Shown here one piece after another: positions 1 through 15,932 of a stretch of 64,000 bases of DNA. The stretch comes from an uncultured Flavobacteriales bacterium (GTDB lineage: Bacteria > Bacteroidota > Bacteroidia > Flavobacteriales > BACL11). The stretch lies in the NCBI GenBank assembly GCA_905478765.1, contig CAJQJY010000006.1, positions 1-64,000 of the forward strand, given 5' to 3'. Positions within the stretch are counted from its first letter, which is position 1; each line of letters starts with the position of its first letter. The notes below the pieces were generated by a model. It saw nothing but the letters and a program-made list of their open reading frames with translations. It was not told the origin of the DNA and made no database searches. The translations under genes and the position numbers were made by a program.

Positions 1-46
1 TATTGAAAACAATGGAAATTGAATGAATCTAAATACATATTGTTCT

Positions 47-67
47 AGTCCCGTCCAGACCGCTCAG
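47..67. repeat. att core copy 1 (tRNA 3' end, probably tRNA-Asp)
   Basis: This short sequence matches the 3' strand of a T-arm plus the acceptor strand CCAGACC and discriminator G of a tRNA. It is the junction between element A and DNA further left. The core CCGTCCAGACCGC recurs near 9918 and 15759, each time followed by a terminator. A partner strand GGTCTGG with discriminator G fits tRNA-Asp of flavobacteria (recalled, not searched). Bases 1-46 do not form a tRNA body, so this is an att remnant, and the DNA to its left is probably the end of another element. Confidence 0.75.
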
Positions 68-324: not shown

Positions 325-1557
325 ATGAAAAACACTTTCTCAATTTTATTCTACTTAAGAAAAAGTAAAAAAAAGACTAATGGAACTACTCCAATTTATG
401 TGCGCGTTACAGTAAATGGTAAGCGTTCTGATTTCTCAGCTAAAAGAAGTATCGATGCTTTTAAATGGAATAAATCTAAAGCAAGAGCAAAAGGCACAAA
501 TGAAATTACTAGAACCCTAAACACTTACTTAGATACGCTAAAGCAAAAGCTATATGATGCTCATCAACACCTTTTAAATAAAGGTAAGGTTGTTTCTGCA
601 AAAGCAATAACTAATCATTACTTGGGTAAATCAGAAGAAAAGAAAACAATTCTTGAAGTATTTAATCTCCATAATGATAACATTACCGCTCTTATAGGTA
701 GGGGTTATGTAAAATCTACTGTAACTAAATACAAAACAACGTATAAGCATTTAAAAGCATTTATCAAACATAAGTACAAATCTGATGATTTACACCTTAT
801 ACAGGTTTCTCTTGGTACTATCACAGCTTTTGATCACTTCCTTAAAACCATTCAAGGGGTTGGTGTGAATTGCACCAATAAATACCTCACACATTTTAAT
901 AAGGTGGTTAACCTTGCAGTGGATAATGATTGGTTAGATAAAAATCCTTGTCTTAATCATAAAATGAAGAATGAGACTGTAACTAAAGATTATCTTTCTG
1001 AGTTTGAGATACAATCACTTATTGATAAGGATATTCCCAATATGCGTTTGGCACAAGTTAGGGATATATTTGCCTTTTGTTGTTTTACTGGTTTAGCTTT
1101 TATAGATGTGAAAAATCTTACTCCAGGTGATGTAAAAATGGGTGTTGATAGAGAGCAATGGATATATACAAAAAGGAAAAAAACAGGAACTACAACCAAT
1201 ATTCCGCTATTTCCTCACGCACTTGTGTTAATTGATAAGTACAAGAACCATCCAGAAGCTGTTAATAGAGGCACTCTCTTGCCTGTTTTAAGTAATCAGA
1301 AGATGAATGCTTACCTTAAAGAAGTGGCTGTAATATGTGGTTTAGATAAGCATTTAACTATGCATTTAGCTCGCCATACATTCGCAACTTATCTTCTGAC
1401 TAAAAATGTACCAATAGAATCAGTTTCTAAACTGCTGGGGCACAAGTCATTAAAGACAACTCAGATTTATGCTAAAGTTATAGACTCTAAAGTAGCTGAT
1501 GATATAAGTGCTATTATTAGTAAAACCCCAATATTATCACTTCAAAAAGTGTCTTAA
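325..1557 (+). CDS. Tyrosine recombinase / integrase of element A
   Basis: A 410-residue site-specific recombinase, about the usual length for Bacteroidota phage/transposon integrases. It should catalyse integration and excision of element A at the adjacent att sites. Residues 1-90 resemble the arm DNA-binding domain, about 100-200 the SAM-like core-binding domain, and the rest the catalytic domain. Box II is visible as HLARHTF (H-x-x-R), followed by the LLGH motif and the tyrosine in TQIYAKV. The Arg I position reads FTGLAFIDV, so alanine stands where most family members have arginine; IntDOT-type Bacteroides recombinases are known to lack Arg I, so this need not be inactivating. It starts 260 bases inside the left att site and reads away from it. 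ATG start; no Shine-Dalgarno sequence is visible. Confidence 0.92.
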   Translation: MKNTFSILFYLRKSKKKTNGTTPIYVRVTVNGKRSDFSAKRSIDAFKWNKSKARAKGTNEITRTLNTYLDTLKQKLYDAHQHLLNKGKVVSAKAITNHYLGKSEEKKTILEVFNLHNDNITALIGRGYVKSTVTKYKTTYKHLKAFIKHKYKSDDLHLIQVSLGTITAFDHFLKTIQGVGVNCTNKYLTHFNKVVNLAVDNDWLDKNPCLNHKMKNETVTKDYLSEFEIQSLIDKDIPNMRLAQVRDIFAFCCFTGLAFIDVKNLTPGDVKMGVDREQWIYTKRKKTGTTTNIPLFPHALVLIDKYKNHPEAVNRGTLLPVLSNQKMNAYLKEVAVICGLDKHLTMHLARHTFATYLLTKNVPIESVSKLLGHKSLKTTQIYAKVIDSKVADDISAIISKTPILSLQKVS

Positions 1558-1708: not shown

Positions 1709-1975
1709 ATGAATAAAAATGACTTAGTAACAGTTCAAGATCTTCAAGAATTAAAAGAAGAAATAATTAGTAAAATTGAACATATAACTAAAAATAAAAC
1801 TACTCAAAAAGAATGGCTCAGATCATTTGAAGTAATGGAAATGCTAGGCATATCTACAGGAACATTACAAAACCTTAGAATTAATAGGGATATTCCATTT
1901 ACTAAAATGGGAGGTACGCTCTATTATGAAAGAGCTGAAGTTGTAAAAGCACTTAATAAATGTAAAGCTGCATAA
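1709..1975 (+). CDS. Helix-turn-helix protein, excisionase-like
   Basis: An 88-residue protein. Residues 1-35 form a charged, probably coiled helix. Residues 37-88 (FEVMEMLGISTGTLQNLRIN, then PFTKMGGTLYYERAEVVKAL) are a winged MerR-type HTH of the kind called helix-turn-helix domain 17 or excisionase-like in Bacteroidota elements. It follows the integrase on the same strand, so it is the natural candidate for a recombination directionality factor or element repressor. A TATATTTG box at 1680-1687 could be its -7 element; this is inferred. Confidence 0.75.
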   Translation: MNKNDLVTVQDLQELKEEIISKIEHITKNKTTQKEWLRSFEVMEMLGISTGTLQNLRINRDIPFTKMGGTLYYERAEVVKALNKCKAA

Positions 1976-2982: not shown

Positions 2983-3400
2983 GATGAAAAAACTATTTAC
3001 ATTATTAGCAACTGTAACATTAAGTGTAATGTTATTTGCTCAAGCCCCACAATCATTTTCTTACCAGACGGTAATTAGAGATGCTAGTTGGCAAGTTCTA
3101 TCTAATCAGAATATAAGTTTAGAGATTTCAATTATTGAGGATGTAGCTAATGGTACAGCAATCTATACTGAATCTCATTCTGCAACCACTAATGAATTAG
3201 GTTTAGTTAATCTTTCTATTGGAGATGGAGGAGTAATGTCAGGATCTTGGAGTAATATAGATTGGGGAAACCATACTTACTTTATTGAAGTAGCTGTTGA
3301 TGTTACAGGAGGCACAAGTTATATTGTAATGGGTACTACTCAATTACGAAGTGTTCCTTATGCACTATATGCAGAAACCTCTGGATCAAGCACACCAGGT
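2494..3400 (+). repeat. Large direct repeat, copy 1 (partner 6285-7191)
   Basis: About 900 bases spanning the whole T9SS gene and the first 130 or so codons of the fibre gene recur at a constant offset of 3791 bases. The T9SS part reads as identical; the fibre part differs at only scattered positions and diverges fully once the Gly-X-Y region begins. This is a recent tandem duplication or one kept alike by gene conversion. Confidence 0.9.
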
Positions 3401-6247
3401 CCACAAGGTGCAACAGGAGCAACAGGCCCACAAGGTCCTATTGGATTAACAGGTCCTGCAGGTGCAAACGGAATAGATGGAGCTGATGGACAAGATGGTG
3501 CTGACGGCGCAACAGGTCCTATTGGATTAACAGGAGCAACAGGTCCTCAAGGTAATGATGGAGCTGATGGACAAGATGGTATAGACGGAGTTGATGGTGC
3601 AGTTGGTGCTCAGGGTCCTATTGGTCAAACAGGTCCCCAAGGAATACAGGGTCCTGCAGGTAATGATGGACAAGATGGTACTGACGGAACAGACGGAGTT
3701 GATGGTGCAGTTGGTGCTCAGGGTCCTATTGGATTAACAGGAGCTCAAGGAATACAGGGTCCTGCAGGTAATGATGGACAAGATGGTACTGACGGAACAG
3801 ACGGAGTTGATGGTGCAGTTGGTGCTCAGGGTCCTATTGGTCAAACAGGTCCCCAAGGAATACAGGGTCCTCCAGGTAATGATGGACAAGATGGTACTGA
3901 CGGAACAGACGGAGTTGATGGTGCAGTTGGTGCTCAGGGTCCTATTGGATTAACAGGTCCTCAAGGTATTCAAGGAATACAGGGACTTCCAGGAGATACA
4001 GGAGCAGTAGGACCTCAAGGTCCGATTGGATTAACAGGAGCTACAGGCCCTCAAGGAATACAAGGACTAACGGGTGCTACTGGAGCAACAGGTCCACAAG
4101 GATTAACTGGAGCAACAGGTCCTCAAGGTGCTACAGGTCCTCAAGGGTTAACTGGAGTTCAAGGTCCTCAAGGAGCAACAGGCGCACAAGGCCCTATTGG
4201 ATTAACAGGTCCTCAAGGAGCAGCTTCAACTGTGCCAGGTCCTCAAGGCCCTCAAGGATTAACAGGAGCTACAGGTCCTCAGGGAACACAAGGAATACAA
4301 GGTCCTGCTGGTATTGATGGTATAGATGGAGTTGATGGAGCAGTTGGTGCTACAGGTCCTCAAGGACCACAAGGAATACAAGGTCCTGCAGGTGTTGATG
4401 GACAAGACGGAGTAGACGCATTAGTTAATTACGATTCATTGGCTAATCTTATTAGTGTAGATTCTAGTTTTGCTGCTAGTGTTAGTGGTGGTATGGGTGG
4501 AGGGTGTGATTTTAAATATCCAGAAGGATTAGATGGAGATGCAATTACACACGAATTAAGTAATGGCAATAATTATACGGTTCCTGCGGGTAAGAAATTA
4601 TATATTCTAAATCATTTTGGTCCAGATGGCAAATTGATAATTGATAATATAACAATAAATCATGGAAGTAATGATAACGAAAAACATTCACTTGCAAATC
4701 CTATAATTGCTTCATCTGTACAGGTAATAACTACTACCGCTGCTAATGCGTCTGCTTTTAATGGTTTTCTAGTTGATGACATTACTGATATTCAGGGAAT
4801 TACACACGAATTAAGTAATGGCAATAATTATACGGTTCCTGCGGGCAAGAAATTATATATTCTAAATCATTATTCTCCAAATGGCAAATTGATAATTGAT
4901 AATATAACAATAAATTATGGAAGTAATTTTTACTTACTACATTCACTTGCAAATCCTATAATTGCTTCATCTGGACAGGTAATAACTACTACCGCTGCTA
5001 ATGCGTCTGCTTTCAACGGCTACTTAGTAGATGAGAATTACTTTGCAGATTGTGGAGGTGGAGGTTCATCAAGTTCAACATCAAGTCTTGATTCTGCAAT
5101 GGTTGCTAATATGATAGCTAATAGTGGAAGTGGTGGAAGCTGCATGATAAGCCCTTATCACCCTGAAGGATTAAGTGGTATAGAATATGTTAGTAATTGG
5201 GAACCATATACAGTTCCATCTGGCAAAACATTCTATATGCATACCGAACTTACTAATTTAGAAATTAATGGTGTTGATGATGTTGTTGATGGTGATCATT
5301 ATTTTCCTATTCCTATAAAAGAAAATTCTACTTTAGCTTGGAGTGGTGGTACAACTACTTTAACAGGCTATCTTGTAGATAAAGGTTATGAAGTAATAAA
5401 TTATTTAGGTGGAAGTACTAATTATACTGTTCCTAGTAATAGTTACTTGTATATATTAAATTTACAAAATAGCGGACTTACAGTAAATTCAAATTATATA
5501 CAAACTGGAAGTATGGGAGGTAATTATATTACACCACCATATATTTTACAGCCTTCAGATATTGTTTCTAGTGTTAATGGTTTTAATGGTTTGTTGATTC
5601 CAATAGATGATTGTAATTCTGGGGGTTCATCAAGTGCTAGTGCTGGATTAGATTCTGCTACTGTAGCAACAATGATTGCAAGTGCAGTAAGTAATTCTTC
5701 AGGATCTTCTGTGCCAACTGGTAGTATACAAGCATATTCAGGAACAACTGCACCAAATGGATGGCTACTATGCGATGGAAGTACAGTATCAAGAACTATA
5801 TATACCGATTTATATGCAATAATTGATACTTCTTTTGGCCTAGGAGATGGCAGTTATACTTTACAATGGGTTGATAGTAATAATGATGGTATAATGCAAC
5901 CAAATGAAATGATAAATATACCATCAACATTTAATCTTCCTGATTTAAGAGGGAGAACAATTATAGGCCTAGATAATATGGGAGGAATACCTGCAAATAT
6001 TGTTAGTGGAATAAATTCTTTAGGTGTGATTGGAGGATCAGAAACACATACTCTTACTATAGCTGAAATGCCAAATCATAATCATAGTTTCTATGCAGTT
6101 GGTAGTCAAGGTACTGGTAATCATAATGATGGAGGAACTAGTAACGCAATTGGAAATACTTTTATTACAACTAGCTCAGAAGGAGGAGATCAGCCTCACA
6201 ATAATATGCAACCATATCTTTCCCTAAACTATATAATTAAATATTAG
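2984..6247 (+). CDS. Secreted collagen-like fibre protein with tail-collar domain (module copy 1)
   Basis: 1087 residues. Signal peptide about 1-20 (MLFAQA). An N-terminal beta domain (about 21-130) ends in [14 protein letters not shown], the usual lead-in to Bacteroidota collagen-like proteins. Residues about 138-480 are Gly-X-Y triplets, including several 36-residue (108-base) tandem units. Then come about four copies of a beta domain with the signature YTVPxGKxLYI...GYLVD, separated by Gly/Ser linkers and [11 protein letters not shown]-type helices. Residues about 905-1087 match the phage tail collar fold ([41 protein letters not shown]). It has no T9SS tail. Expected structure: a trimeric stalk with a C-terminal head, acting outside the cell. 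The binding target is unknown. It is duplicated at 6775-9336 with a different head. Confidence 0.9.
3605..4036 (+). repeat. 108-base tandem repeats in the collagen region
   Basis: The unit starting GGTGCTCAGGGTCCTATTGG begins at 3605, 3713, 3821 and 3929, exactly 108 bases apart. It encodes 36 residues (12 Gly-X-Y triplets), so gain or loss of a unit would keep the frame. The last unit diverges after its first third. Confidence 0.9.
4543..5035 (+). repeat. Direct repeat of a beta-domain segment inside the fibre gene
   Basis: Bases 4543-4780 and 4798-5035 are about 90% alike, offset 255 bases. Each encodes one [19 protein letters not shown]...GFLVD / GYLVD domain. The differences cluster in one loop (NDNEK versus FYLL). 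Confidence 0.85.
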
Positions 6248-6251
6248 CTCT

Positions 6252-6275
6252 GACTTTAAAACAATAGATTAACAA
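6252..6275 (+). promoter_or_regulatory. Conserved leader before module copy 2
   Basis: A 24-base sequence beginning GACTTTAAAACAATAG lies 10 bases before the ATG at 6285 and recurs exactly at 9656-9679, before another signal-peptide start. A degenerate form precedes the ATG at 2494. It is probably the shared 5' leader of the modules. Confidence 0.55.
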
Positions 6276-6284
6276 TAAACTAAG

Positions 6285-6773
6285 ATGAAAAAACTACTAC
6301 TTATATTACTTTGCTTACCCTTTATTGGGTTTGGGCAAATCACCTCACCTTCAGTTATTTCTAGTTCTGGTAATTCCTACAATAATGGAGGAATAAATAT
6401 GGATTATACTTTAGGAGAGATTGTAGTTGAGACTTTTCAACCCACTGTGACTCCTCTTCCTCTTACATATACTATCTTAACTCAAGGATTCCATCAAGGA
6501 ATATTAAAAGTCACTACAAGCGTTGAGAATATTGATATTAAGACAAAAGTTTACCCAAATCCAACTACTAACTTTATAATTATTGAGTTAGAAAAAAATG
6601 TCAATGCCGATATATTGGTTTATGACATTAATGGAAAGTTAGTTCTTAAGGATAACTTAAATGATGAGAATCAAAAGCAATTAGACTTTAGCTTTTTAAA
6701 TCAGGGAAATTACTTACTACATATAAACATAGCAGATAAGCAATCTGTTTATCAAATAAACAAAACAAAATAA
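6285..6773 (+). CDS. Small T9SS type A sorted protein (module copy 2)
   Basis: This gene encodes the same 162 residues as the gene at 2494-2982 with no difference seen, while the partner fibre genes have diverged. It carries a signal peptide at 1-18 and a T9SS sorting tail from about residue 85. It follows the first fibre gene by 37 bases on the same strand and precedes the second fibre gene by 1 base (TAA-G-ATG). Identity of the small protein beside divergence of the fibre heads suggests that the small protein serves any fibre, or that gene conversion homogenises it. Both explanations are inferred. Confidence 0.85.
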
Positions 6774-7191
6774 GATGAAAAAACTATTTACATTATTAGC
6801 AACTGTAACATTAAGTGTAATGTTATTTGCTCAAGCCCCACAATCATTTTCTTACCAGACGGTAATTAGAGATGCTAGTTGGCAAGTTCTATCCAATCAG
6901 AATATAAGTTTAGAGATTTCAATTATTGAGGATGTAGCTAATGGTACAGCAATCTATACTGAATCTCATTCTGCAACCACTAATGAATTAGGTTTAGTTA
7001 ATCTATCTATTGGACAAGGAGGAGTAATGTCAGGATCTTGGAGTAATATAGATTGGGGAAACCATACTTACTTTATTGAAGTAGCTGTTGATGTTACAGG
7101 AGGTACAAGTTATATTATAATGGGTACTACACAATTACGAAGTGTTCCTTATGCATTATATGCGGAGACTTCTGGTTCAAGCACACCAGGT
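6285..7191 (+). repeat. Large direct repeat, copy 2 (partner 2494-3400)
   Basis: Second copy of the duplicated block, offset 3791 bases from the first. Scattered substitutions appear only in the fibre part, for example SIGDGG in copy 1 against SIGQGG in copy 2. Confidence 0.9.
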
Positions 7192-9336
7192 CCACAAGGA
7201 TTACAAGGAATTCAAGGATTACCAGGAGATACAGGAGCAACAGGTCCTCAAGGTCCTATTGGATTAACAGGAGCTCAAGGATTACAAGGTATTCAGGGAT
7301 TACCAGGAGATACAGGAGCAACAGGTCCTCAGGGTCCTATTGGATTAACAGGAGCTCAAGGAATACAAGGTATTCAGGGATTACCAGGAGATACAGGAGC
7401 AACAGGTCCTCAAGGTCCTATTGGATTAACAGGTCCTCAAGGAATACAAGGTATTCAAGGGCTACCAGGAAACACAGGTATTCAAGGGCTACCAGGAAAC
7501 ACAGGTCCTCAAGGATTAACTGGAAATACAGGTCCTCAAGGATTAACTGGAAATACAGGTCCTCAAGGGTTGACTGGAGCTCAAGGTCCTCAAGGCGCAA
7601 CAGGTCCTCAAGGTCCTATTGGATTAACAGGTCCTCAAGGAGCAGCTTCAACTGTGCCAGGTCCTCCAGGAATACAGGGTCCTTCAGGTAATGACGGAGC
7701 AGATGGAACAAACGGTAATGACGGAACAGACGGCGTTGATGGTGCAGTTGGTGCAACAGGTCCTCAAGGACCACAAGGAATACAAGGAATACAAGGAATA
7801 CAAGGTCCTGCAGGTGTTGATGGACAAGACGGAGTAGACGCATTAGTTAATTACGATTCATTAGCTAATCTTATTAGTGTTGACTCTACTTTTATTACAA
7901 CAGTTGGAGGAGGAATGGGAGGTGGTGGTTGTAACTTTACCTTTCCTGAAGGAATTGGAGAAAGTATTACATGGGATTTATTTGGAAATGATTATACAGT
8001 CCCTAATGGCAAAAATTTATATATTACTAATATTTATGCAGAAACGGGTTATTATTTTGAGATTGATGGAAAACAAATATTTGATTATTCGACTCTAGGT
8101 TTAGCTTCAGGTGGAGTAGTTATGCTTCCATTATGTGTAAAATCGGGTCAGACAGTTAGCTACTATCACAATTCTTCATGGGTAACACCTGCGAAACTCC
8201 CTACTTTTCATGGTGTTTTAACTGATGCTGTTGTTGAGCCCATAACTTATAAATTTGATAATGCAGGTAGTGGTTTTGAAACTTACACTGTACCTTTAGG
8301 GAAGAAATTAGTTATAACTAATTTATGGATTTATGAGAGTTCTGAGATATTTACTATCGATGGGGTAATTATTGCTGAGGGATATTTTAATGCTTCTCTA
8401 GCTTCAGGTGGTAAGCAATTAGAAACACCATTAATTATAAATAGTGGTTCAGTTCTTTTATTAGAGGATAACTTAGCTGGATTCAATGGCTACTTAGTAG
8501 ATGAGAATTACTTTGCAGGCTGTGGTGGAGGTGGTTCTTCAAGTTCAACATCAAGTCTTGATTCAACTACAATTGCTAATATGATAGCAGCAGCTGGTGG
8601 AGGTGTTTCATTTGGGGATTTTATTTCAATTAATACTAATACTGAATCTCAAGCTATATCAGATGGATTTCTTTATGGTAAATTCCATTTAACAAACGTA
8701 AGTACTATAGATATTTTTTGCGATACTTTTAGTGGAAATACTTCATCAAGAGGATATTTCTCCTCAAATCCCTATGGAGGAAACTACCTAAGAGACGGGT
8801 CATTTAATATTCCTATTAAAAAGAATGAGTATTATTCATTTAATAATACTGGAAACTCAAGTATTTATGATGCTTATTTTGTTCCATTAGATAGTGATGT
8901 TGGTTCTAGTTCAAATTCAGGACCTACATTTATTGAGCCAATCTTAATTGTTAATAGTTTGTGTGACTCTAACAATAATTTAGTTGATAATATTTATATT
9001 AATATGGATTCTATATTTGGTCAACACGTATCTTCAGTAATAATTCATTCACAGTTTACAGCAAAAGGAAATTATCAAAATAATCAAAAAATAGATTTAG
9101 AAGTAAATTCTTGGAACAGTATTTTTGAAACACCAATATTCAGACTTTATAGTGAAGTAAATTACTCAGGAAATATTTCATATGACGATGAATTAACAAG
9201 AGTATCTAATCAAGTTATTATTCCTAATAGCAACTCAGGTATTATCACTTTAGTTATTTCAGGATATTCTAATACTAATGGCTCATCTGCATGTAGCTTA
9301 CCAGCTGGTGATATAAAAATTGTTGGATATTATTAA
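6775..9336 (+). CDS. Secreted collagen-like fibre protein (module copy 2)
   Basis: 853 residues. The signal peptide and N-terminal domain (1-135) are nearly identical to those of the 2984-6247 protein. The Gly-X-Y stalk (about 138-350) is shorter and built from different triplet blocks ([20 protein letters not shown] and similar). Two clear copies and one weaker copy of the YTVPxGKxLxI...GYLVD beta domain follow. The last 140 residues (from about 715) are an unrecognised beta-rich head in place of the tail collar domain. It has no T9SS tail. It forms a unit with the preceding small T9SS gene. Its role in adhesion or as a surface fibre is inferred from architecture only. Confidence 0.88.
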
Positions 9337-9344
9337 TAATTATA

Positions 9345-9410
9345 CTAGCTAATCCTAACCTTACTTGTATTAGTGTAGATGATGCAGCTTGGTCGACTTC
9401 TAATTGGGTA
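9345..9410 (+). pseudogene. Fragment of an LRR-type T9SS surface protein
   Basis: One frame reads LANPNLTCISVDDAAWSTSN followed by WV. This is the cysteine-containing motif that ends leucine-rich-repeat segments in many Bacteroidota surface proteins. It has no start, no repeats before it and no sorting tail after it. It lies directly after the second fibre gene, so it looks like a remnant of replaced cargo. Confidence 0.5.
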
Positions 9411-9505
9411 ATATCTAGCGTAATTTTTGACCCTCAAAGCTCTTTAGCGTACAATGTACTTAAAACAAAAAGGTATATTTTCTATTATATACTAAACGAT
9501 ATAAT

Positions 9506-9631
9506 ATGCCATTTAAGAAAGGAACAAGCGGAAACCCTATAGGTAGACATAAAGGTTCAGTAAGCACTACTACTAAGCTCATAAGAGAGCATATAAGCCA
9601 AGCAATTGACGGAAACAAGATAATGGAGTAG
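9506..9631 (+). pseudogene. Short ORF with DUF5681/terminase-small-like N terminus
   Basis: 41 codons from ATG to TAG, beginning MPFKKGTSGNPIGRHKGS. The KKGxSGNPxGRPKG pattern is the start of DUF5681 proteins, which are often found beside phage terminase genes. Only this start is present. A sequence with the same upstream block (TATTTTCTATTATAT) and the same first residues occurs in element B at 12494. Probably a truncated gene, though a small functional peptide is not excluded. Confidence 0.5.
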
Positions 9632-9655
9632 TGAATAATAATTCTTAAGTTTACA

Positions 9656-9679
9656 GACTTTAAAACAATAGATTAACAA
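9656..9679 (+). promoter_or_regulatory. Conserved leader before a third, truncated module
   Basis: Identical over 24 bases to 6252-6275 and placed 4 bases before the ATG at 9684, suggesting that a third secreted-protein module once followed. Confidence 0.5.
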
Positions 9680-9683
9680 ACAG

Positions 9684-9776
9684 ATGAAAAGAACACTACT
9701 TTTTATATTCTCCTTACTTACTCTTAACCTAATAGCTAAAGATATTAAGTTTGTAGTATTATCAGTTGAATTATAA
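9684..9776 (+). pseudogene. Truncated secreted-protein gene (signal peptide only)
   Basis: A 30-codon frame reading MKRTLLFIFSLLTLNLIAKD then IKFVVLSVEL and a stop. It is a clear signal peptide with almost nothing after it, preceded by the same leader as module copy 2. It looks like the 5' stub of another exported-protein gene cut by deletion. Confidence 0.5.
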
Positions 9777-9835
9777 TTCTTATCTTTACCAGGCAGGGTA
9801 GAAAAGGATTTTATGCTCTTGTTAAAAGATTCTAA

Positions 9836-9857
9836 AAAGGTGTCCTAATAGGTGCAC
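9836..9857. repeat. Putative integrase arm site of element A, right end
   Basis: AAAAAGGTGTCCTAATAGGT followed by GC matches 163-184 with few changes. It sits 59 bases inside att copy 2, mirroring the left-end copy. Confidence 0.55.
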
Positions 9858-9915
9858 CCTTAAGAATGAAAAAGATAAGTTACTGATAATAAGCAATATA
9901 CTGGATAGGTTCATC

Positions 9916-9930
9916 TCCCGTCCAGACCGC
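9916..9930. repeat. att core copy 2 (junction of elements A and B)
   Basis: TCCCGTCCAGACCGC, the same tRNA 3'-end sequence as at 50 and 15759. The following bases (to about 9984) match those after copy 3 at roughly 90%, so element B is flanked by a direct repeat of about 65 bases. The sequence to the left is not a tRNA body. Confidence 0.75.
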
Positions 9931-9943
9931 AACTAAAAGTTTT

Positions 9944-9979
9944 AAACCCTTGTAATCCAAAAGATTGCAGGGGTTTTTT
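9944..9979 (+). terminator. Terminator following att copy 2
   Basis: A 14-bp stem with two G-T pairs (AAACCCTTGTAATC with GATTGCAGGGGTTT) and a T tract, nearly identical to the one after att copy 3. Confidence 0.75.
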
Positions 9980-9985
9980 AATTTC

Positions 9986-10014
9986 AAGGGGAAGGATTAG
10001 GGGAAGGATTTTTG
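9986..10014. repeat. Putative integrase arm site of element B, left end
   Basis: Two direct copies of GGGGAAGGATT separated by one A, followed by T's. The same block occurs at 15618-15646 by the other end of element B and nowhere else noticed. The arm-site role is inferred. Confidence 0.55.
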
Positions 10015-10186
10015 TTTTAGAAATATTGTCTAACATTTTTTTTGGCATCAAATTCAGCACACAAATCTTCTTTAAATTATCTGTTGATAACTTAGCAAGT
10101 AACAATATAGTGTTAAGAACGAAAATCTATTTTTAGCTTCTATAATTTAAAGTTTCAGTTATATTGTTCTAAATTAATAAAAAAAA

Positions 10187-10369
10187 ATGGAGAATATATA
10201 TTTAACAGAAAAACAAGTAGCTAAGAAGTATACAGTGGACACAAGAACTTTATACAACTTCAGGAAAGCAGGCAAGTTAGAAAATGGTATTCATTTTTTC
10301 TATATAGGAAGACAGATTAGATACAAAGCCAATGAACTGCAAGAGTATTTTTTGAAACCTAAACATTAA
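10187..10369 (+). CDS. Helix-turn-helix protein, excisionase-like (element B)
   Basis: 60 residues. YLTEKQVAKKYTVDTRTLYN is the HTH, followed by a wing (FFYIGRQIRYKANELQEYF). This is the minimal MerR-like/excisionase fold typical of Bacteroidota elements. Its integrase is not adjacent but lies at the opposite end of element B. The likely role is directionality factor or regulator of the rep-like gene 120 bases downstream. Confidence 0.7.
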   Translation: MENIYLTEKQVAKKYTVDTRTLYNFRKAGKLENGIHFFYIGRQIRYKANELQEYFLKPKH

Positions 10370-10387
10370 CCTATTAATTTTATTTTA

Positions 10388-10440
10388 ACGTATTAAAGAC
10401 TTATTTAAGGGGCGTTTACCCCCTTTAATCCTTACGTATT
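10388..10440. other. Hairpin with flanking ACGTATT repeats, candidate replication origin
   Basis: The hairpin TTTAAGGGG / CCCCTTTAA with loop CGTTTAC lies between two direct ACGTATT repeats (10388-10394 and 10434-10440), just before the HUH Rep-like gene. Rolling-circle double-strand origins often combine a hairpin with short Rep-binding repeats beside rep. It could instead be a weak terminator of the HTH gene, but no T tract follows. Confidence 0.35.
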
Positions 10441-10486
10441 TAAAACTCAAAATAAATAAGTATAACTAATTAAAAATCAAAGTATT

Positions 10487-10882
10487 ATGTATAAAGAAAA
10501 TCAAAGAGAAATAGTTAGGTCAATGGGTAATTGGTTAGGTGGTATGCCTTGGGATATCTTCTCTACAATCACTTATAGATATGATATTAAAGCTAAACAG
10601 AATTATAGGATAATGACTGGCTTAGAGGAGTATTTAAAGAGCTTAGATAAGCCTTTTAATATGTTCTGGGTTACTGAGTTCACTAACAGAAATTATAACA
10701 CTCACAATCATCTCTTATTAAAGGGTAATATTGTTAATGATATTACTTATCATCTAAAGACACAAAGTCTTATAGGAGACTATGTCAAGCACTATCCTTA
10801 TGAAAAGGGCGCAAGTATGTATGTGTCTAAGTTTATCTTTGATGATAAGACTAATTGGGGTTTAATAGACAATACAAAGTAA
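10487..10882 (+). CDS. Small HUH-type Rep / relaxase-like protein
   Basis: 131 residues. The three motifs of rolling-circle initiators appear in order with normal spacing: motif 1 FSTITY (25-30), motif 2 HNHLLLKG (73-80; His-x-His), and motif 3 YVSKF (112-116) with a candidate nicking Tyr112 and Lys115. Such enzymes nick one DNA strand and stay joined to the 5' end, starting rolling-circle replication or transfer. The protein is shorter than most Reps (200-300 residues), so it may be a minimal domain or truncated; the debris that follows fits truncation. The middle residue of HUH is Asn rather than hydrophobic, which lowers certainty. Position between an HTH gene and cargo in a small integrative element fits a replication or mobilisation role. 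Confidence 0.6.
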   Translation: MYKENQREIVRSMGNWLGGMPWDIFSTITYRYDIKAKQNYRIMTGLEEYLKSLDKPFNMFWVTEFTNRNYNTHNHLLLKGNIVNDITYHLKTQSLIGDYVKHYPYEKGASMYVSKFIFDDKTNWGLIDNTK

Positions 10883-10888
10883 ATAGAA

Positions 10889-11204
10889 ATGCCTTTGGAT
10901 AATATAAACATGAAACATATAGTATTTGATAAAGGCACTGAAAGTTTAGAGGAGATTATTGAGAAAATAACATCTCAAGATACATTAGAAAGCAAAATTG
11001 GTGTGTACACAATGTTTAAATTAACTCGTTGTTTACAAAAGAGGTACAATTGCTACAATTAATCTTTATCTACAAATTAAACATCCTAATTCTTGGATTG
11101 AGATAAAGAAAATTTATTATCCAACTTTAGTTGACAGGGCTAAAAAACAATTTTACGTTATAAAAAAGAGATTCTCTAAAATGTTTTTATATTTTCACAA
11201 TTAA
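10889..11204 (+). pseudogene. Frameshifted small gene, unknown
   Basis: A 57-codon frame from the ATG at 10889 ends at 11062. From about 11040 the +1 frame is open to 11204 and reads protein-like (GTIATINLYLQIKHPNSWIE, then YYPTLVDRAKKQFYVIKKRF). Joining the frames near 11042 would give a protein of about 105 residues. No family is recognised. It could alternatively be a genuine 57-residue protein followed by noncoding DNA. Confidence 0.4.
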
Positions 11205-11216
11205 AATAAAAAATTT

Positions 11217-12434
11217 ATGGCGCATATAGTTAAATTTGAAATTAGAGATGAATTTCTTAATAATGATGGAGAAGAAATTGAATTGGATGGAATAGATGTT
11301 GGTTTGATTGATATTTATTCAGATGAGTGTGAAGAATGCGAAGGCGCCGGAACCAATGTTGATGGAAATGAGTGTGAAGAATGCGAAGGAACTGGAGAAT
11401 GTGATGAATACATAAGTTGTGAAGGAGATGCGCAGGGTGTTCCTATTAGAGTTTATGATCAGTCAGAAGGGGGGTACACATGTGGAAATTATGATTATTA
11501 TATAGTTACAGATATCCCTTTCGATTATGATATAGATGGAATTAATAATTGGAGAGATATTAAACATTTTGATTCTTATGAAGAAGCATCTGTTTGGATT
11601 GAAAATATTCCAACTATCACATATTCAGATGCAGTAGAAAAAGGATGGATAGTTACTCATGATAATGAATGTGAGGATTGTGGGAATGACTTAGATGAGT
11701 GTGAATGTGAAGATGACGGGGAGTATAAAAAGTATCATTCAAATGGACAGATAAAGGCACACTATCATATAAAGAATTTGTATAAAACAGGTGAATCTAA
11801 AGAATGGTATGAAAATGGTCAATTAAAAGAATTTAACATAGAAACAGATTTATTAAGACAGCATGAAGCTTGGAGAAAGGATGGTGAAGCTTCAGTATTT
11901 AGGAGTAAAAAACGTGTTAATGTTAAAGAAGAGTTTCAAGAGGAGTTTGAAAAGGCTTTTTATAAATCATGGCATGATAATGGTCAATTAAAATTTATGT
12001 CTAACAATAAAGGAATATTTAAATGGTATCCAGATGGTTCAAAACAAATGGAAGATTTATATTCTGACGACTATAAAGGTTTTGAGCATCCAGTTTTAGT
12101 GCTTAGAGATGGAAAAAAATATTTATATCAAAGTAAACAATATATTAGTAGGAAAAGTTGGGATGAAAGTGGTAAATTATATCCTGTCAAATTTAATAAT
12201 CCTAAGATGGAAGATTCTTATGAAGAATGTAATGAAAAAACAGTAAGACTTAAATATGGAGCACAACCTTTTGATCTTCGTAAGGATATTACTGCTATAA
12301 ACGTAAAATCTAATATTGAATATAAAATTTCTTCTGATCTAAGAATAACAGATTTAAATAAAGGATCTTACATTTTAAAGATAACCAATGATTATGAAGA
12401 AGCTATATCTCACAGGAAGTTAATTGTTGAATAA
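11217..12434 (+). CDS. Zinc-knuckle and MORN-like (YwqK-type) repeat protein
   Basis: 405 residues without a signal peptide. Residues about 36-65 hold two DnaJ-like CxxCxGxG motifs (CEECEGAGTN, CEECEGTGEC), and CEDCGNDLDECEC follows near 156-168, suggesting zinc binding. About 174-285 are MORN-variant repeats of the YwqK antitoxin type (KYHSNGQIKA, EWYENGQLKE, SWHDNGQLKF, KWYPDGSKQM). The last 45 residues (YKISSDLRITDLNKGSYILK, then I and a basic end) resemble a T9SS sorting tail, which is odd in a protein without a signal peptide. It is cargo of element B. Function unknown; YwqK-like proteins are sometimes immunity proteins, but no toxin partner is evident here. Confidence 0.7.
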   Translation: MAHIVKFEIRDEFLNNDGEEIELDGIDVGLIDIYSDECEECEGAGTNVDGNECEECEGTGECDEYISCEGDAQGVPIRVYDQSEGGYTCGNYDYYIVTDIPFDYDIDGINNWRDIKHFDSYEEASVWIENIPTITYSDAVEKGWIVTHDNECEDCGNDLDECECEDDGEYKKYHSNGQIKAHYHIKNLYKTGESKEWYENGQLKEFNIETDLLRQHEAWRKDGEASVFRSKKRVNVKEEFQEEFEKAFYKSWHDNGQLKFMSNNKGIFKWYPDGSKQMEDLYSDDYKGFEHPVLVLRDGKKYLYQSKQYISRKSWDESGKLYPVKFNNPKMEDSYEECNEKTVRLKYGAQPFDLRKDITAINVKSNIEYKISSDLRITDLNKGSYILKITNDYEEAISHRKLIVE

Positions 12435-12493
12435 ATTATTTTTTTTAAAATAACTCATTACTCATAAAATCAAAATATTTTCTATTATATAGT

Positions 12494-12547
12494 ATGCTAT
12501 TTAAGAAAGGAACAAGTGGAAACCCTATAGGTAGGCCTAAAGGTTAA
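12494..12547 (+). pseudogene. Truncated DUF5681-like start, second copy
   Basis: Reads MLFKKGTSGNPIGRPKG and then stops. The upstream block TATTTTCTATTATAT and the coding start match 9506-9631 in element A, with a 12-base deletion between them. It follows the 405-residue gene by 60 bases. Probably a remnant of a gene once shared by both elements. Confidence 0.45.
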
Positions 12548-13043
12548 AGAATGTTCTTTTTATTTCCAAACTATCTCAGTTATTTTCATTACCTTAGAGT
12601 CCTACAAGTTAATCATCTTTTTTAGGTTTTGTAAAGAAAAGAAAACACACCAAAACCCGTTGACAATTTTGATAACCCGTATGTTGTTCAATAGGGTTGT
12701 CATATAATTGTAAATGTGGTTGCGGAGTTTATTATTCTCTTTAGCAATTTTGAAATCCTTGTGATTTTTAAAATTGGTAATGATTTGTTATTATTCATTT
12801 TATTATCCGCCCATGTTATGTCTTCTCCGAAAGGGTAATTATCTTGTGCATAATAACTATTTAGTTTTCTTTGGCAAATTAGGTGCATAATAACTCAAAA
12901 TGCCAGAATCTAATGTGTATATCTGACTACCTATAAATATCACATTAGACACGTAAACTACTCTTAATCAACAGCTTGTAGTTATACTATTGGCATTACC
13001 CCTATTAGTGTAAAATAATGTTTAAAGTAGTTATACTTATTTT
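12548..13043. other. Intergenic stretch with inverted and direct repeats
   Basis: No convincing gene. It contains a perfect 9-bp inverted repeat TCTAATGTG / CACATTAGA (12909-12917, 12941-12949), which could be an operator for the nuclease gene downstream, and a 13-base direct repeat GTGCATAATAACT (12846-12858, 12883-12895). Confidence 0.4.
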
Positions 13044-13051
13044 TAACTTTG
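13044..13051 (+). promoter_or_regulatory. TAnnTTTG -7 box for the nuclease gene
   Basis: TAACTTTG fits the Bacteroidota -7 consensus and lies 6 bases before the ATG at 13058, so the transcript would have almost no leader. Confidence 0.4.
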
Positions 13052-13057
13052 CCTATT

Positions 13058-14386
13058 ATGAAGAGGTTAACAAGTGTTGATTTTATAGAAAGAGCAAGGA
13101 AAACTCATGGAGATGAATATATATATGATAAGTCTACATATAAAACTGCTAAGGCTAAGATAACAATCACGTGTAGATTACATGGTGATTTTGACCAACA
13201 AGCCTTTAGTCATCTAAGTGGTTCAGGTTGCCCTAAATGCTCAGGCAAGAATAAAACTAATGAAGAATTTATTGCTAATGCTAAAGATATACATAATGAC
13301 ACATATGACTATTCAAAAACGGAATATATAAATAGTGAGAAAAAGATTATTGTTATATGTAAAGAACATGGTGAATTCAAACAATCTCCAGTTGTTCATT
13401 TAAGGGGTGCTGGATGTAAATTATGTGGCATAAGAGAAAATAAGAGTAAACAAAGAAGCTCTACTGCTGAGTTTATTAAAAAAGCTAATTTAGTGCATGG
13501 TGATAGATATGATTATAGTAAAGTAGAATATGTTAATTCTAAGACTAATATTAAGGTAATTTGTAATCAACATGGTAGTTTTGAGGTTTCGCCCTCTAAT
13601 CATCTTAAAAATAGGAATTGTCCTAAATGTGGGCAAATTGCAAGAGCTAATAGCCGTAGATTTACAAAAGAAGATTTTATAAATGAAGCAATTAAGGTTC
13701 ATGGAGAGTTTTACATCTACGATAAGGTTGAATATATTAATAGTCAAACCCACATATTAATCACATGCCCTAAACATGGCGACTTCATAACCTCACCAAA
13801 TAATCACCTAAGAGGAAAGAAATGTCGTGAATGTCATTTTGAGAACCTTTCTTTAATATTTAGTGATGACACTGATTCTTTCATTAAGAAGGCTATAGAA
13901 ACTCATGGCAAAACTTATGATTATAGTTTAGTGGATTATGTTAATGCAAAAGAAAAAGTAAAAATTATCTGCAAGGAACATGGCGTGTTTGAACAGAATA
14001 CTTTCTCTCATATTAAAGGTGTGGGTTGCCCATCTTGTGCTTCATATGGTTTTGATAGATTAAAACCTTCAACCTTTTATATTAGAAAACTATATATGGA
14101 TAATGGTGATATTGCATTAAAATATGGAATAACAAACCAGAAACATGAAGATAGAGCCTATCAACAGAGCTTAGGATTAATGGGTGAGCTGGAAACAGTT
14201 TTTACTGCTCCTTGCTTAGGAGTAATAGCATTAGAGATTGAGGGTAAATGCAAAACTCTATTTGGACGAAAAGGCTTTATATCAGAAGAGCAAATGCCAG
14301 ATGGACATACTGAAACAGTTAAATACTCAGAAAACAATCTTAATAAGATAAAATCTATTATTGATGAGGTGTTAAATGAGAAATAG
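13058..14386 (+). CDS. Five zinc-ribbon repeats plus GIY-YIG-like nuclease
   Basis: 442 residues from the ATG at 13058; a TTG at 13049 would add three residues but overlaps the promoter box. Residues 1-335 are five repeats of 66-69 residues following F(I)xxAxxxHGxxYDYSKxxY..., then C-x3-HG, an H, and a closing C-x2-C (CPKC, CKLC, CPKC, CREC, CPSC). These are the DUF723-type treble-clef/zinc-ribbon repeats common in phage proteins. The last 105 residues resemble a GIY-YIG nuclease: FYIRKLY...LKYGITNQ, an Arg, ALEIEGKCKTLFG with the expected Glu, and DGHTETV. It probably binds DNA through the zinc modules and cuts it. A homing, element-competition or defence role is inferred. Confidence 0.75.
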   Translation: MKRLTSVDFIERARKTHGDEYIYDKSTYKTAKAKITITCRLHGDFDQQAFSHLSGSGCPKCSGKNKTNEEFIANAKDIHNDTYDYSKTEYINSEKKIIVICKEHGEFKQSPVVHLRGAGCKLCGIRENKSKQRSSTAEFIKKANLVHGDRYDYSKVEYVNSKTNIKVICNQHGSFEVSPSNHLKNRNCPKCGQIARANSRRFTKEDFINEAIKVHGEFYIYDKVEYINSQTHILITCPKHGDFITSPNNHLRGKKCRECHFENLSLIFSDDTDSFIKKAIETHGKTYDYSLVDYVNAKEKVKIICKEHGVFEQNTFSHIKGVGCPSCASYGFDRLKPSTFYIRKLYMDNGDIALKYGITNQKHEDRAYQQSLGLMGELETVFTAPCLGVIALEIEGKCKTLFGRKGFISEEQMPDGHTETVKYSENNLNKIKSIIDEVLNEK

Positions 14387-15577
14387 TTAAACTACTTTCT
14401 TTAATTCAGTTGGATAAATCTCAAGAATCCTACTTAGCTTTACTTCTCTTTTAACCTGAACATAGTTCAAAAAGGTTGTTTCCTTTTTATGTCCTGTAAT
14501 CCTCATTAAATCTCTTATTGGCACATCACTAATATATCCATTAGTGGCAAATGACCTTCTGGCTGTATGACATGTAACAAGCTCATATTTATTAGATTTT
14601 TTATCTCTATCTATTACTAACTCATCAATCTCAGCATTTCTACACACCTTCTTAATTTGCTTATTTAGTTTAGTATTTGATAGTTGAGGTAAAATGTAAT
14701 TATACTTCTTAATAATCTCTAAGGCATTAGGATGAATTGGAATAGATACTTGTTCATTTGTTTTATGCATAGTTATATCAAGATAATTATCTGAAATACT
14801 ATTCTTATTAACCTTTCTGTAATCACTATATCTTAATCCTAAGTAACACATCAATATAAAAGAATCCCTTGTTCTTTCAAGAGAGCCATTAAGATTTAGT
14901 TTTTGTAGTCTATTAATCTCTTCTATTGTAAGGTATATCTTTTTTGTTTTTTTTGACAATACCTTAAAGGATTTCTTCTGATATTCAAGATTTTTATTGA
15001 CACCCATTTCTGTGGCATAGTTCATAATACTTTTGATTGTCTTTATTCTCTTTCCAAAGGTGTTTAAGGAGTGATTTAAGCTCTTTATCATATAGGTCTG
15101 GAATCTTCTATAGAAATCAAGATTAATGCTCTCAAAACTCACTAAATAGCTAGTGTTATTTTCAAATTCTTTTAATGTTTTATAGGTCTGTAAGTAATCT
15201 CTCTTAGTTGTTTCTCTTAATTCATTATTTTGGTCAATATAGAGCATCATATATGAGAAAAAATCTTCTTTTTCTTGTCTATTTAACCTTACATCTAAAT
15301 TTTTTCGTAGAACTTTATTATCAATTATCCTATCATTAACTTGTAAGTTATGATATATATCCATTATGGCATCTTCAACACTTTGTAGTTGCCTATTAAT
15401 CTCTAAACTATGTGATGCTTGTGGCTTAACTCTACAAGTTAATTTATTCCAATTTGTTGGATTTATAGAGTTCTTTGTTGAGTACTTAAAGACCTTATTA
15501 TTGTAGTTGAAAAACATCAAAATAAGAGTCTCATTTTCCGATTTTTTGTCCTTTAAATAGAATTTAGAATTTGCCAT
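14387..15577 (-). CDS. Tyrosine recombinase / integrase of element B
   Basis: 396 residues from the ATG at 15577; an upstream TTG would add MII. Residues 1-95 are the arm-binding region, about 100-195 the core-binding domain, and the rest catalytic. All usual residues are visible: Arg I in LGLRYSDYR, H-x-x-R in CHTARRSFATN, GHKKETT, and the tyrosine in FLNYVQV. Unlike the integrase of element A, Arg I is present. It lies at the right end of element B, about 180 bases from att copy 3, and reads inward, convergent with the nuclease gene; the two coding regions abut with no gap. It should catalyse excision and integration of element B. Confidence 0.92.
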   Translation of the reverse strand: MANSKFYLKDKKSENETLILMFFNYNNKVFKYSTKNSINPTNWNKLTCRVKPQASHSLEINRQLQSVEDAIMDIYHNLQVNDRIIDNKVLRKNLDVRLNRQEKEDFFSYMMLYIDQNNELRETTKRDYLQTYKTLKEFENNTSYLVSFESINLDFYRRFQTYMIKSLNHSLNTFGKRIKTIKSIMNYATEMGVNKNLEYQKKSFKVLSKKTKKIYLTIEEINRLQKLNLNGSLERTRDSFILMCYLGLRYSDYRKVNKNSISDNYLDITMHKTNEQVSIPIHPNALEIIKKYNYILPQLSNTKLNKQIKKVCRNAEIDELVIDRDKKSNKYELVTCHTARRSFATNGYISDVPIRDLMRITGHKKETTFLNYVQVKREVKLSRILEIYPTELKKVV

Positions 15578-15617
15578 AATTATCAATCTTTATATAATAT
15601 AACAACAAATATTTTGA

Positions 15618-15646
15618 AAGGGGAAGGATTAGGGGAAGGATTTTTT
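15618..15646. repeat. Putative integrase arm site of element B, right end
   Basis: Identical to 9986-10014 in its double GGGGAAGGATT core. It lies between the integrase start and att copy 3. Confidence 0.55.
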
Positions 15647-15758
15647 AACATCAATTTCCATTTCTTTCACTTTATTTCACTTTTGAAAGGTAGTATTCAT
15701 CCTTAATTTATTGAAACGAAATGAAAGGAGATGAAAGGAGTTGTATAGATAGAGGGTG

Positions 15759-15775
15759 CCGTCCAGACCGCTCAG
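15759..15775. repeat. att core copy 3 (right edge of the island)
   Basis: CCGTCCAGACCGCTCAG matches copy 1 and, over the first 13 bases, copy 2. Chromosomal housekeeping genes begin beyond it. Confidence 0.75.
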
Positions 15776-15784
15776 TTAAAAGAT

Positions 15785-15820
15785 AAACCCTTGTAATTCA
15801 AAAGATTGCAGGGGTTTTTT
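15785..15820 (+). terminator. Terminator following att copy 3
   Basis: Stem AAACCCTTGTAATT with GATTGCAGGGGTTT, then a T tract. Almost the same as the hairpin at 9944-9979. Confidence 0.75.
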
Positions 15821-15932
15821 AATTTTTTTAGACTTTATAGTCATTCATAAAGGTGTAATAAATAACAACCCTAATGTTAATAACTATAAAACCCTAAAGT
15901 CTTTCTCATCATAAGTAGGCTTAAATTTACAT

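Follow-up and report, generated by a model that had tools for sequence, protein, structure and literature searches.

In the window, that is, the whole stretch of 64,000 nucleotides analysed here, we found an integrated element of 5.9 kb (element B, about 9908-15825), which we consider as an integrative mobile element of marine Flavobacteriales that probably excises and replicates by rolling circle from a hairpin, by means of an HUH Rep protein of its own. The basis for this reading is the match of the protein to the REP_ORF2-G2P profile (PF23343), its predicted fold, the covariation of the hairpin, the direct repeats, the linkage of HTH gene, hairpin and rep, the purifying selection acting on rep, and the gene that takes its slot in a related island (L115). 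The first-pass annotation had proposed a compact integrative element in which an integrase and an HTH protein accompany a Rep-like protein. This proposal is supported by the integrase, the direct repeats of the attachment sites, the fold, the conserved hairpin and selection; the interval given for it, 10187-10882, covers only part of the element, and the picture drawn at that stage was without the conserved flanking architecture and the DUF5681 gene.

Precisely, the tyrosine integrase would recombine the repeats derived from tRNA-Asp, probably aided by the HTH protein as excision factor, and a circle of about 5.85 kb would be freed. The 131-aa HUH protein would then cut one strand immediately downstream (3') of the conserved hairpin that precedes its own gene, and the nick would start rolling-circle replication with the polymerase and the helicase of the host. 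Copy number would rise, or concatemers would form, before transfer and re-integration. We infer excision, nicking, replication and transfer of element B from the features described below, and with good reason in the case of replication after excision.

Borders and gene content of element B

Element B contains an integrase, an excisionase-like HTH protein, arm-type repeats and direct repeats derived from tRNA-Asp (Table 1). The 42-bp direct repeats, at 9943-9984 and 15784-15825, are 98% identical and both stand beside a tRNA-Asp(GTC) 3' end; the left tRNA-Asp remnant matches the tRNA-Asp 3' end and downstream sequence of the relatives at 93%. The integrase gene lies inside these target-gene-derived direct repeats, which is the arrangement of integrative elements of the tyrosine recombinase type. 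Just inside the 42-bp repeats are the arm-type repeats, near-identical versions of which adjoin tRNA-Asp in two relatives (L027 and L036), and their probable role as arm sites is suggested by the Arm-DNA-bind_5 domain of the integrase. In the same two relatives the HTH gene occupies the same place and its product is 78% identical; judging from its matches, the 60-aa HTH_17 protein is probably Xis or a regulator. For the 57-aa ORF at 10889-11062 no match was found in the relatives' loci that we searched.

Table 1. Position of the features of element B and of the neighbouring island A in the window.
Feature	Position	Strand	Remarks
Left end of island A, third tRNA-Asp 3' remnant	42..63	+	95% match
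Integrase of island A	325..1554	+	PF17293, PF00589, PF13102
HTH protein of island A (HTH_17)	1709..1972	+	
Deletion scar	9506..9700	+	DUF5681 ends near codon 41-43 and continues into the 3' tail and downstream leader of a rep that has been lost
Left attachment region	9908..9984	+	tRNA-Asp 3'-end remnant GTCCAGACCGC and 42-bp repeat TAAACCCTTGTAATCCAAAAGATTGCAGGGGTTTTTTAATTT
Arm-type direct repeat, left copy	9986..10013	+	AAGGGGAAGGATTAGGGGAAGGATTTTT; probable integrase arm sites
HTH_17 protein, 60 aa, excisionase/AlpA-like	10187..10369	+	PF12728, 34 bits; phrog_66 excisionase, 2.3e-7
ACGTATT copy 1	10388..10394	+	Present; recurs in L027, the only copy that recurs
Candidate origin hairpin AAGGGG-CGTTTAC-CCCCTT	10407..10425	+	Hairpin here in 13/13 rep loci
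Conserved motif TAATCCTTACGTATTTAAAA 3' of the hairpin, candidate nick region	10426..10445	+	Consensus TTTAATnCTTACTATATCTAA; 13 loci
ACGTATT copy 2	10434..10440	+	Not conserved among homologues
HUH Rep, 131 aa	10487..10882	+	Motif 1 FSTITY, motif 2 HNHLLL, motif 3 YVSK (Y112); PF23343
57-aa ORF	10889..11062	+	ORF only
Cargo, MORN-repeat protein	11217..12434	+	PF07661, 40 bits; weak C-terminal sorting domain PF18962, below cut-off
DUF5681 remnant	12494..12547	+	18 initial codons followed by a stop; 89% identity with the L024 protein, residues 1-18
Cargo, repeat protein	13049..14386	+	DUF4379/DUF723 zinc-ribbon-type repeats; PF14311, PF05265
Tyrosine integrase (Arm-DNA-bind_5, SAM_5, catalytic)	14387..15586	-	PF17293, PF13102, PF00589 above cut-off; phrog_1, 9.8e-28
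Arm-type direct repeat, right copy	15618..15645	+	100% identical to left copy (28 bp)
Right attachment region	15756..15825	+	tRNA-Asp remnant and 42-bp repeat; 89% match

The third tRNA-Asp remnant, together with an integrase and an HTH gene of its own, indicates that a second island (island A) lies in tandem with element B, and therefore that two islands are stacked in the window. A search of the assembly for a full-length tRNA-Asp gave no match, and the contig begins inside the island stack. Island A also holds a duplicated cargo pair, consisting of two long secreted proteins (2984-6247 and 6775-9336) that share almost the same N-terminus and have collagen-like GPQG repeats, each preceded by a 162-aa protein of identical type. 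On the other side, to the right of attR, positions 15825-15898 form a 74-nt imperfect hairpin (AGACTTTA...TAAAGTCT); by eye, the same hairpin recurs in reversed orientation in the relative L024, downstream of 15315, to the right of the element at mnmE and beside a short ORF.

The Rep protein and its candidate origin

The ORF at 10487-10882 is intact and its 131 residues contain FSTITY, HNHLLLKG and YVSKF in the order of rolling-circle initiators, just as the first-pass annotation had read them. Against the PF23343 profile the protein scored 28.0 bits with a cut-off of 27.8, hence above the curated threshold, but barely; four relatives of the same family scored 30.1-36.6 bits, and a distant one (L066) 25.2, below the cut-off. 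The HUH motif has the form HNH (H73, H75), N or T standing in the middle instead of a hydrophobic residue. The catalytic motif is Y112-V-S-K, and YxxK is retained in every row of the rep alignment that reaches that region. Over the family the alignment keeps W-D-x-F-S-T of motif 1, E-(x)n-H-N-H-L-L and Y-V-[SA]-K.

An AlphaFold2 model of the protein, with the family alignment as input, reached a pLDDT of 83.6 and a pTM of 0.79. The predicted topology is beta-alpha-beta-beta-alpha-beta-alpha-beta; the strand with HNH and the helix with YVSK are positioned as in HUH nucleases. With this model, Foldseek returned 73 matches among viral models at E ≤ 1e-3 (best 1.6e-7), and the named ones were replication proteins or initiators of microviruses and phages. 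A comparison of the predicted fold with Rep proteins had been put forward as a check on the original claim, and it gave a predicted fold of HUH type with viral replication initiators as the best matches. Against the PDB, Foldseek gave nothing at E ≤ 0.001; the HUH nucleases parvovirus NS1, AAV Rep68, nanovirus M-Rep and Vientovirus Rep were among the matches with weak E-values. The PDB was also searched by sequence, with the protein alone or its profile as query, and gave only chance matches or none. At 131 aa the protein consists of the nuclease domain alone, and the C-terminal helicase domain of CRESS-type Reps is absent.

The rep copies differ mainly at synonymous sites, with dN/dS of about 0.11-0.26 for the pairs listed and of about 0.13-0.26 for those including the window copy; values up to 0.33 were obtained for the two most distant subfamilies only, where dS is saturated. 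The gene is under purifying selection. From the PF23343 match, the motifs, the predicted fold and dN/dS we therefore considered the protein as a member of the HUH family whose sequence is kept by selection.

Taken alone, the hairpin of the window is within chance, since, when the 120 bp upstream were shuffled by dinucleotides, an equally good stem arose in 42 of 300 cases. We considered it as real because it occurs in the same place beside all the 13 rep loci compared, because its arms show compensatory changes, and because it is followed by a shared CTT[A/G] motif. The 13 loci come from two Flavobacteriales families, and the conservation of the hairpin beside homologues was a point on which the first-pass annotation had let its origin depend. 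In these loci the stem has 4-7 bp, with one G-rich and one C-rich arm, and stands just 5' of the shared motif, which reads TTTAATnCTTACTATATCTAA, versus TTGxACTTGTATTAxCTAA in the other subfamily, with CTT[A/G] near-invariant. The arms were compared directly; the MAFFT alignment mispairs them. Stem positions 1-3 are G-C throughout, and position 4 is G-C in three loci, T-A in nine and A-T in one. Only 1 in 20,000 arm shuffles paired equally well at positions 4-5, in a shuffle which ignores the relatedness of the loci. At the rep locus of L062 the hairpin was not evident, and a search of Rfam gave sub-threshold matches only. The near-invariant CTT[A/G] motif is reminiscent of the nick sites of the phiX174 and pC194 replicons (CTTG/ATA).

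The hairpin had been reported as lying between two ACGTATT repeats. All three are present in the window, the hairpin being conserved and the repeats not; the position of copy 2 is occupied in relatives by CTTACTATATC, CTTGTATTA or CTTGCATTT. A role of ACGTATT as origin iterons was rejected for this lack of conservation in homologues, and this part of the proposed origin has to be dropped.

Relatives, cargo and DUF5681

Homologues of rep were found in 18 of the 52 genomes of the host family and in 25 of the 396 genomes of the order; in the distribution by class, rep is very rare outside these Flavobacteriales. Three relatives (L022, L027 and L036) have an intact tRNA-Asp, followed by the same order of HTH gene, hairpin and rep. 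The element in L024 is complete: it lies between two copies of a 62-bp repeat that differ at one position, at the mnmE 3' end, and contains integrase, HTH gene, hairpin, rep, secreted-protein genes and DUF5681. Those in L023 and L029 are inserted at tRNA-Ser(GGA). Over the family, hence, the integration sites are tRNA-Asp, tRNA-Ser and mnmE, arrays of secreted-protein genes follow rep, and the unit of HTH gene, hairpin and rep is linked to three different integrases, with mutual identities of only about a third. Between the HTH gene and the cargo, L115 has a phage replication-initiation protein (phrog_4707, 3.7e-22) in the slot of rep. We considered this as the replication slot because of the initiator found there, and the replacement supports rep as the putative replication module of the family.

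The 3' end of mnmE appeared to be an insertion hot spot, with elements or rep fragments in L025, L031, L033, L034 and L024, which belong to several genera. The relative in L062, a Flavobacteriales genome of 4.9 Mb, has an integrase and an HUH rep (4197-13588) and is different in its load, a complete type I restriction-modification system.

Neither the phage and plasmid records nor the viral collections contained close relatives of the window Rep, and neither rep nor the origin matched in 2.9 million IMG/VR contigs, a collection of viral contigs and not of helper-phage particles. Likewise, no extrachromosomal, plasmid or viral copy of the element was found in phage and plasmid records or viral contigs. 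A major capsid protein gene is absent from the ORFs of the element, and no match to one was found in phage records. The other possibility raised at first, an integrated replicon of the single-stranded-DNA virus type, finds no support, given the lack of a capsid gene and of any match in phage and plasmid records or viral contigs.

Copies of rep truncated at the 5' end are frequent among the relatives, and many of the relatives hold rep fragments only, so that much of the family appears to be decaying. A DUF5681 gene truncated at the 3' end near codon 43 and fused to a rep tail occurs both in the window (9506-9700) and in L115 (10040-10183), that is, in two genomes of one genus. The simplest reading of these scars is that they are deletions between neighbouring stacked elements, in which the mobility genes were lost and the cargo was left. 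We rejected the 5'-truncated rep as a special product, since the rep search itself picks deletions ending inside rep and the scars look like inter-element deletions.

Unrelated secreted-protein genes of the islands begin with the same DNA leader, ATGAAAAAACTACTACTTATATTA (2494-2517 and 6285-6308 in the window). This constant leader was found in 38 of the 52 host-family genomes; with a tolerance of one mismatch, single genomes have up to 19 copies, and the reversed control gave none. The leader codons CTA CTA CTT ATA are near-invariant in 39 genes, though TTA is the usual Leu codon, and the leaders diverge a few bases past CTTA. In L064 (7704-13682) a 49-nt repeat (ATGCCCTTCACTAAAGGAAATAATACA + ATGAAA...) is found seven times, at successive cargo-gene starts, like constant 5' cassette caps. 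At about 13890-13930 of L024 the leader leads, out of frame (ATGAAAAAACTACTACTTATATGATTAGA), directly to the start codon of a gene that lacks the signal peptide concerned and looks as if it had been captured behind the leader. The only viral contig carrying the leader is a 42-kb IMG/VR contig (L123), in which a gene at 7084-7866 has the exact constant sequence; to judge from this contig, a phage may carry a cassette of this kind.

In L024, L023, L029 and L031 (in the latter with a 13-bp repeat), no gene stands between DUF5681 and the right attachment site, and in the relatives DUF5681 is under purifying selection. Six tailed-phage contexts were examined. In four of them, namely IMG/VR contig L041, Acetobacter phage phiAX1, Rhizobium phage RHph_N3_2 and MT839917 (TerL by eye), the gene of the terminase large subunit follows a DUF5681 homologue immediately or starts within it; in two large phages the homologue is not adjacent to the large terminase. 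Given these four contexts against two, it is plausible that DUF5681 is a small terminase subunit. In both islands of the window the gene is truncated, and element B keeps a fragment only.

Alternative readings and known systems

The HUH fold is shared by relaxases, which act on hairpins adjacent to their own genes. Given this, and an integrase in the element, the Rep protein could be a nickase of the relaxase type, with the hairpin serving as origin of transfer, the element being mobilised by a resident conjugative system and not replicated. We consider this very unlikely, as the sequence match is to REP_ORF2-G2P and to no mobilisation family, the fold matches are viral replication proteins, a Mob accessory protein is absent, and the slot in L115 holds a replication initiator. 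Least probable of all is that the protein is a strand transferase which shuffles or moves cargo cassettes via origin-like sites in the constant leader. It would fit the common leader of unrelated cargo genes, the divergence soon after CTTA and the likeness of the leader CTTATATTAC to the L064 origin CTTGTATTAC (9/10 bases alike), but that comparison is post hoc, with chance at about 1% by hand estimate, leader and origin do not covary between subfamilies, and homologous recombination or signal-peptide selection could likewise keep the leaders alike. The window element could also be an immobile relic, once mobile and now a cargo carrier inside a stacked island: the left and right repeats differ beyond the 42-bp core, DUF5681 is a fragment, 5'-truncated rep is common in relatives, and island A next door has lost its replication gene and bears a deletion scar. 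The open frames of integrase, HTH gene and rep, the mainly synonymous changes in rep and the 100% identity of the arm repeats at both ends make this unlikely.

A phage satellite is a possibility to be taken seriously, though we doubt it on balance. Infection by a helper would lead to excision and rolling-circle concatemers, and DUF5681 would be a small terminase steering the large terminase of the helper; the window copy, having lost an intact DUF5681, would be a crippled satellite. Such a lifestyle is compatible with a self-replicating integrative element, to which it adds a transfer route. It is made reasonable by the position of DUF5681 (last before the right attachment site in the four relatives, and under selection) together with PICMI, marine satellites of similar size (6.1 kb) with int and AlpA, packaged as concatemers of rolling-circle type (PMC10803314). 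The DUF5681 homologues at the large terminase in L041, phiAX1, RHph_N3_2 and MT839917, the phage-type initiator in place of rep in L115, and the pairing of an integrase with an AlpA/Xis-like regulator, as in PICI/PICMI-like elements, point the same way. Against it, the 2.9 million viral contigs were without a match to rep or origin and had the cargo leader in one contig only, DUF5681 is away from the large terminase in two large phages and truncated in both window islands, the element has no capsid-remodelling gene, and no helper or pac site was identified.

As for known systems, the REP_ORF2-G2P initiators of microviruses and other phages have the same motif order, an HUH-type predicted fold and a single YxxK; unlike in those phages, the window Rep, of 131 aa, comes without capsid genes, and its gene follows one for an excisionase-like protein inside an element with a tyrosine integrase. 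Rolling-circle initiators are already known in small integrative elements of Actinobacteria and in integrated CRESS-type plasmids. In the first group, pSAM2 is an integrative and conjugative element of actinomycetes with int, xis and the rolling-circle initiator RepSA (PMC3218068). Element B and its relatives share with this type the tyrosine integrase, the small HTH excisionase, the rolling-circle initiator and the attachment-site direct repeat at a tRNA gene, but they have a size of about 6-7 kb only, secreted-protein cargo arrays, a DUF5681 gene and Bacteroidota hosts; no FtsK/SpoIIIE-type Tra was found among the ORFs of element B or, by eye, among those of L024 and L023. The pCRESS groups are integrated plasmids with viral-type Reps, site-specific and bounded by direct repeats, and their Reps have a helicase domain (PMC6668415). 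Element B is like them in encoding a Rep, in site-specific integration and in its direct repeats, and unlike them in that its Rep is without the helicase domain. In 2019 a 'Bacteroidetes' HUH cluster was also flagged as presumed integrated elements (PMC6668415).

PICMI form their concatemers by what the authors call rolling circle, have a primase gene (prim) and no terS, and are located at fis (PMC10803314). The elements described here are likewise small and marine, with an integrase, an AlpA-type HTH protein and a replication gene, and adjoin a host gene. They differ in the HUH Rep and hairpin origin, in the DUF5681 gene at the terS position in relatives, in their hosts and in that no helper phage is known; no primase was found among the ORFs of element B, and the sites are tRNA-Asp, tRNA-Ser and mnmE, not fis. 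We rejected the Charybdis elements (PMC12324425) as a counterpart, which have no replication gene and have integrated copies in Marine Group II archaea.

In the literature searched, which covered few subscription papers, no description was found for Bacteroidota of elements that combine an HUH Rep standing alone, a conserved hairpin as origin, integrases that can be exchanged, a gene resembling those of terminase small subunits and long arrays of secreted proteins. Rather tentatively, and with much the same weight as we give to the satellite reading above, we suggest that the family might represent undescribed phage satellites of marine Flavobacteriales, in which the 131-aa HUH Rep would produce concatemers from the hairpin origin, DUF5681 would act as TerS on the terminase of a helper, and the cargo, an array of surface or secreted proteins fused to a single constant DNA leader, would be exchanged between hosts. 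If our reading of the elements is right, it would show how streamlined marine Flavobacteriales, with genomes of 1-2 Mb, move surface-protein genes, and would connect rolling-circle concatemers with phage packaging in a way open to test.
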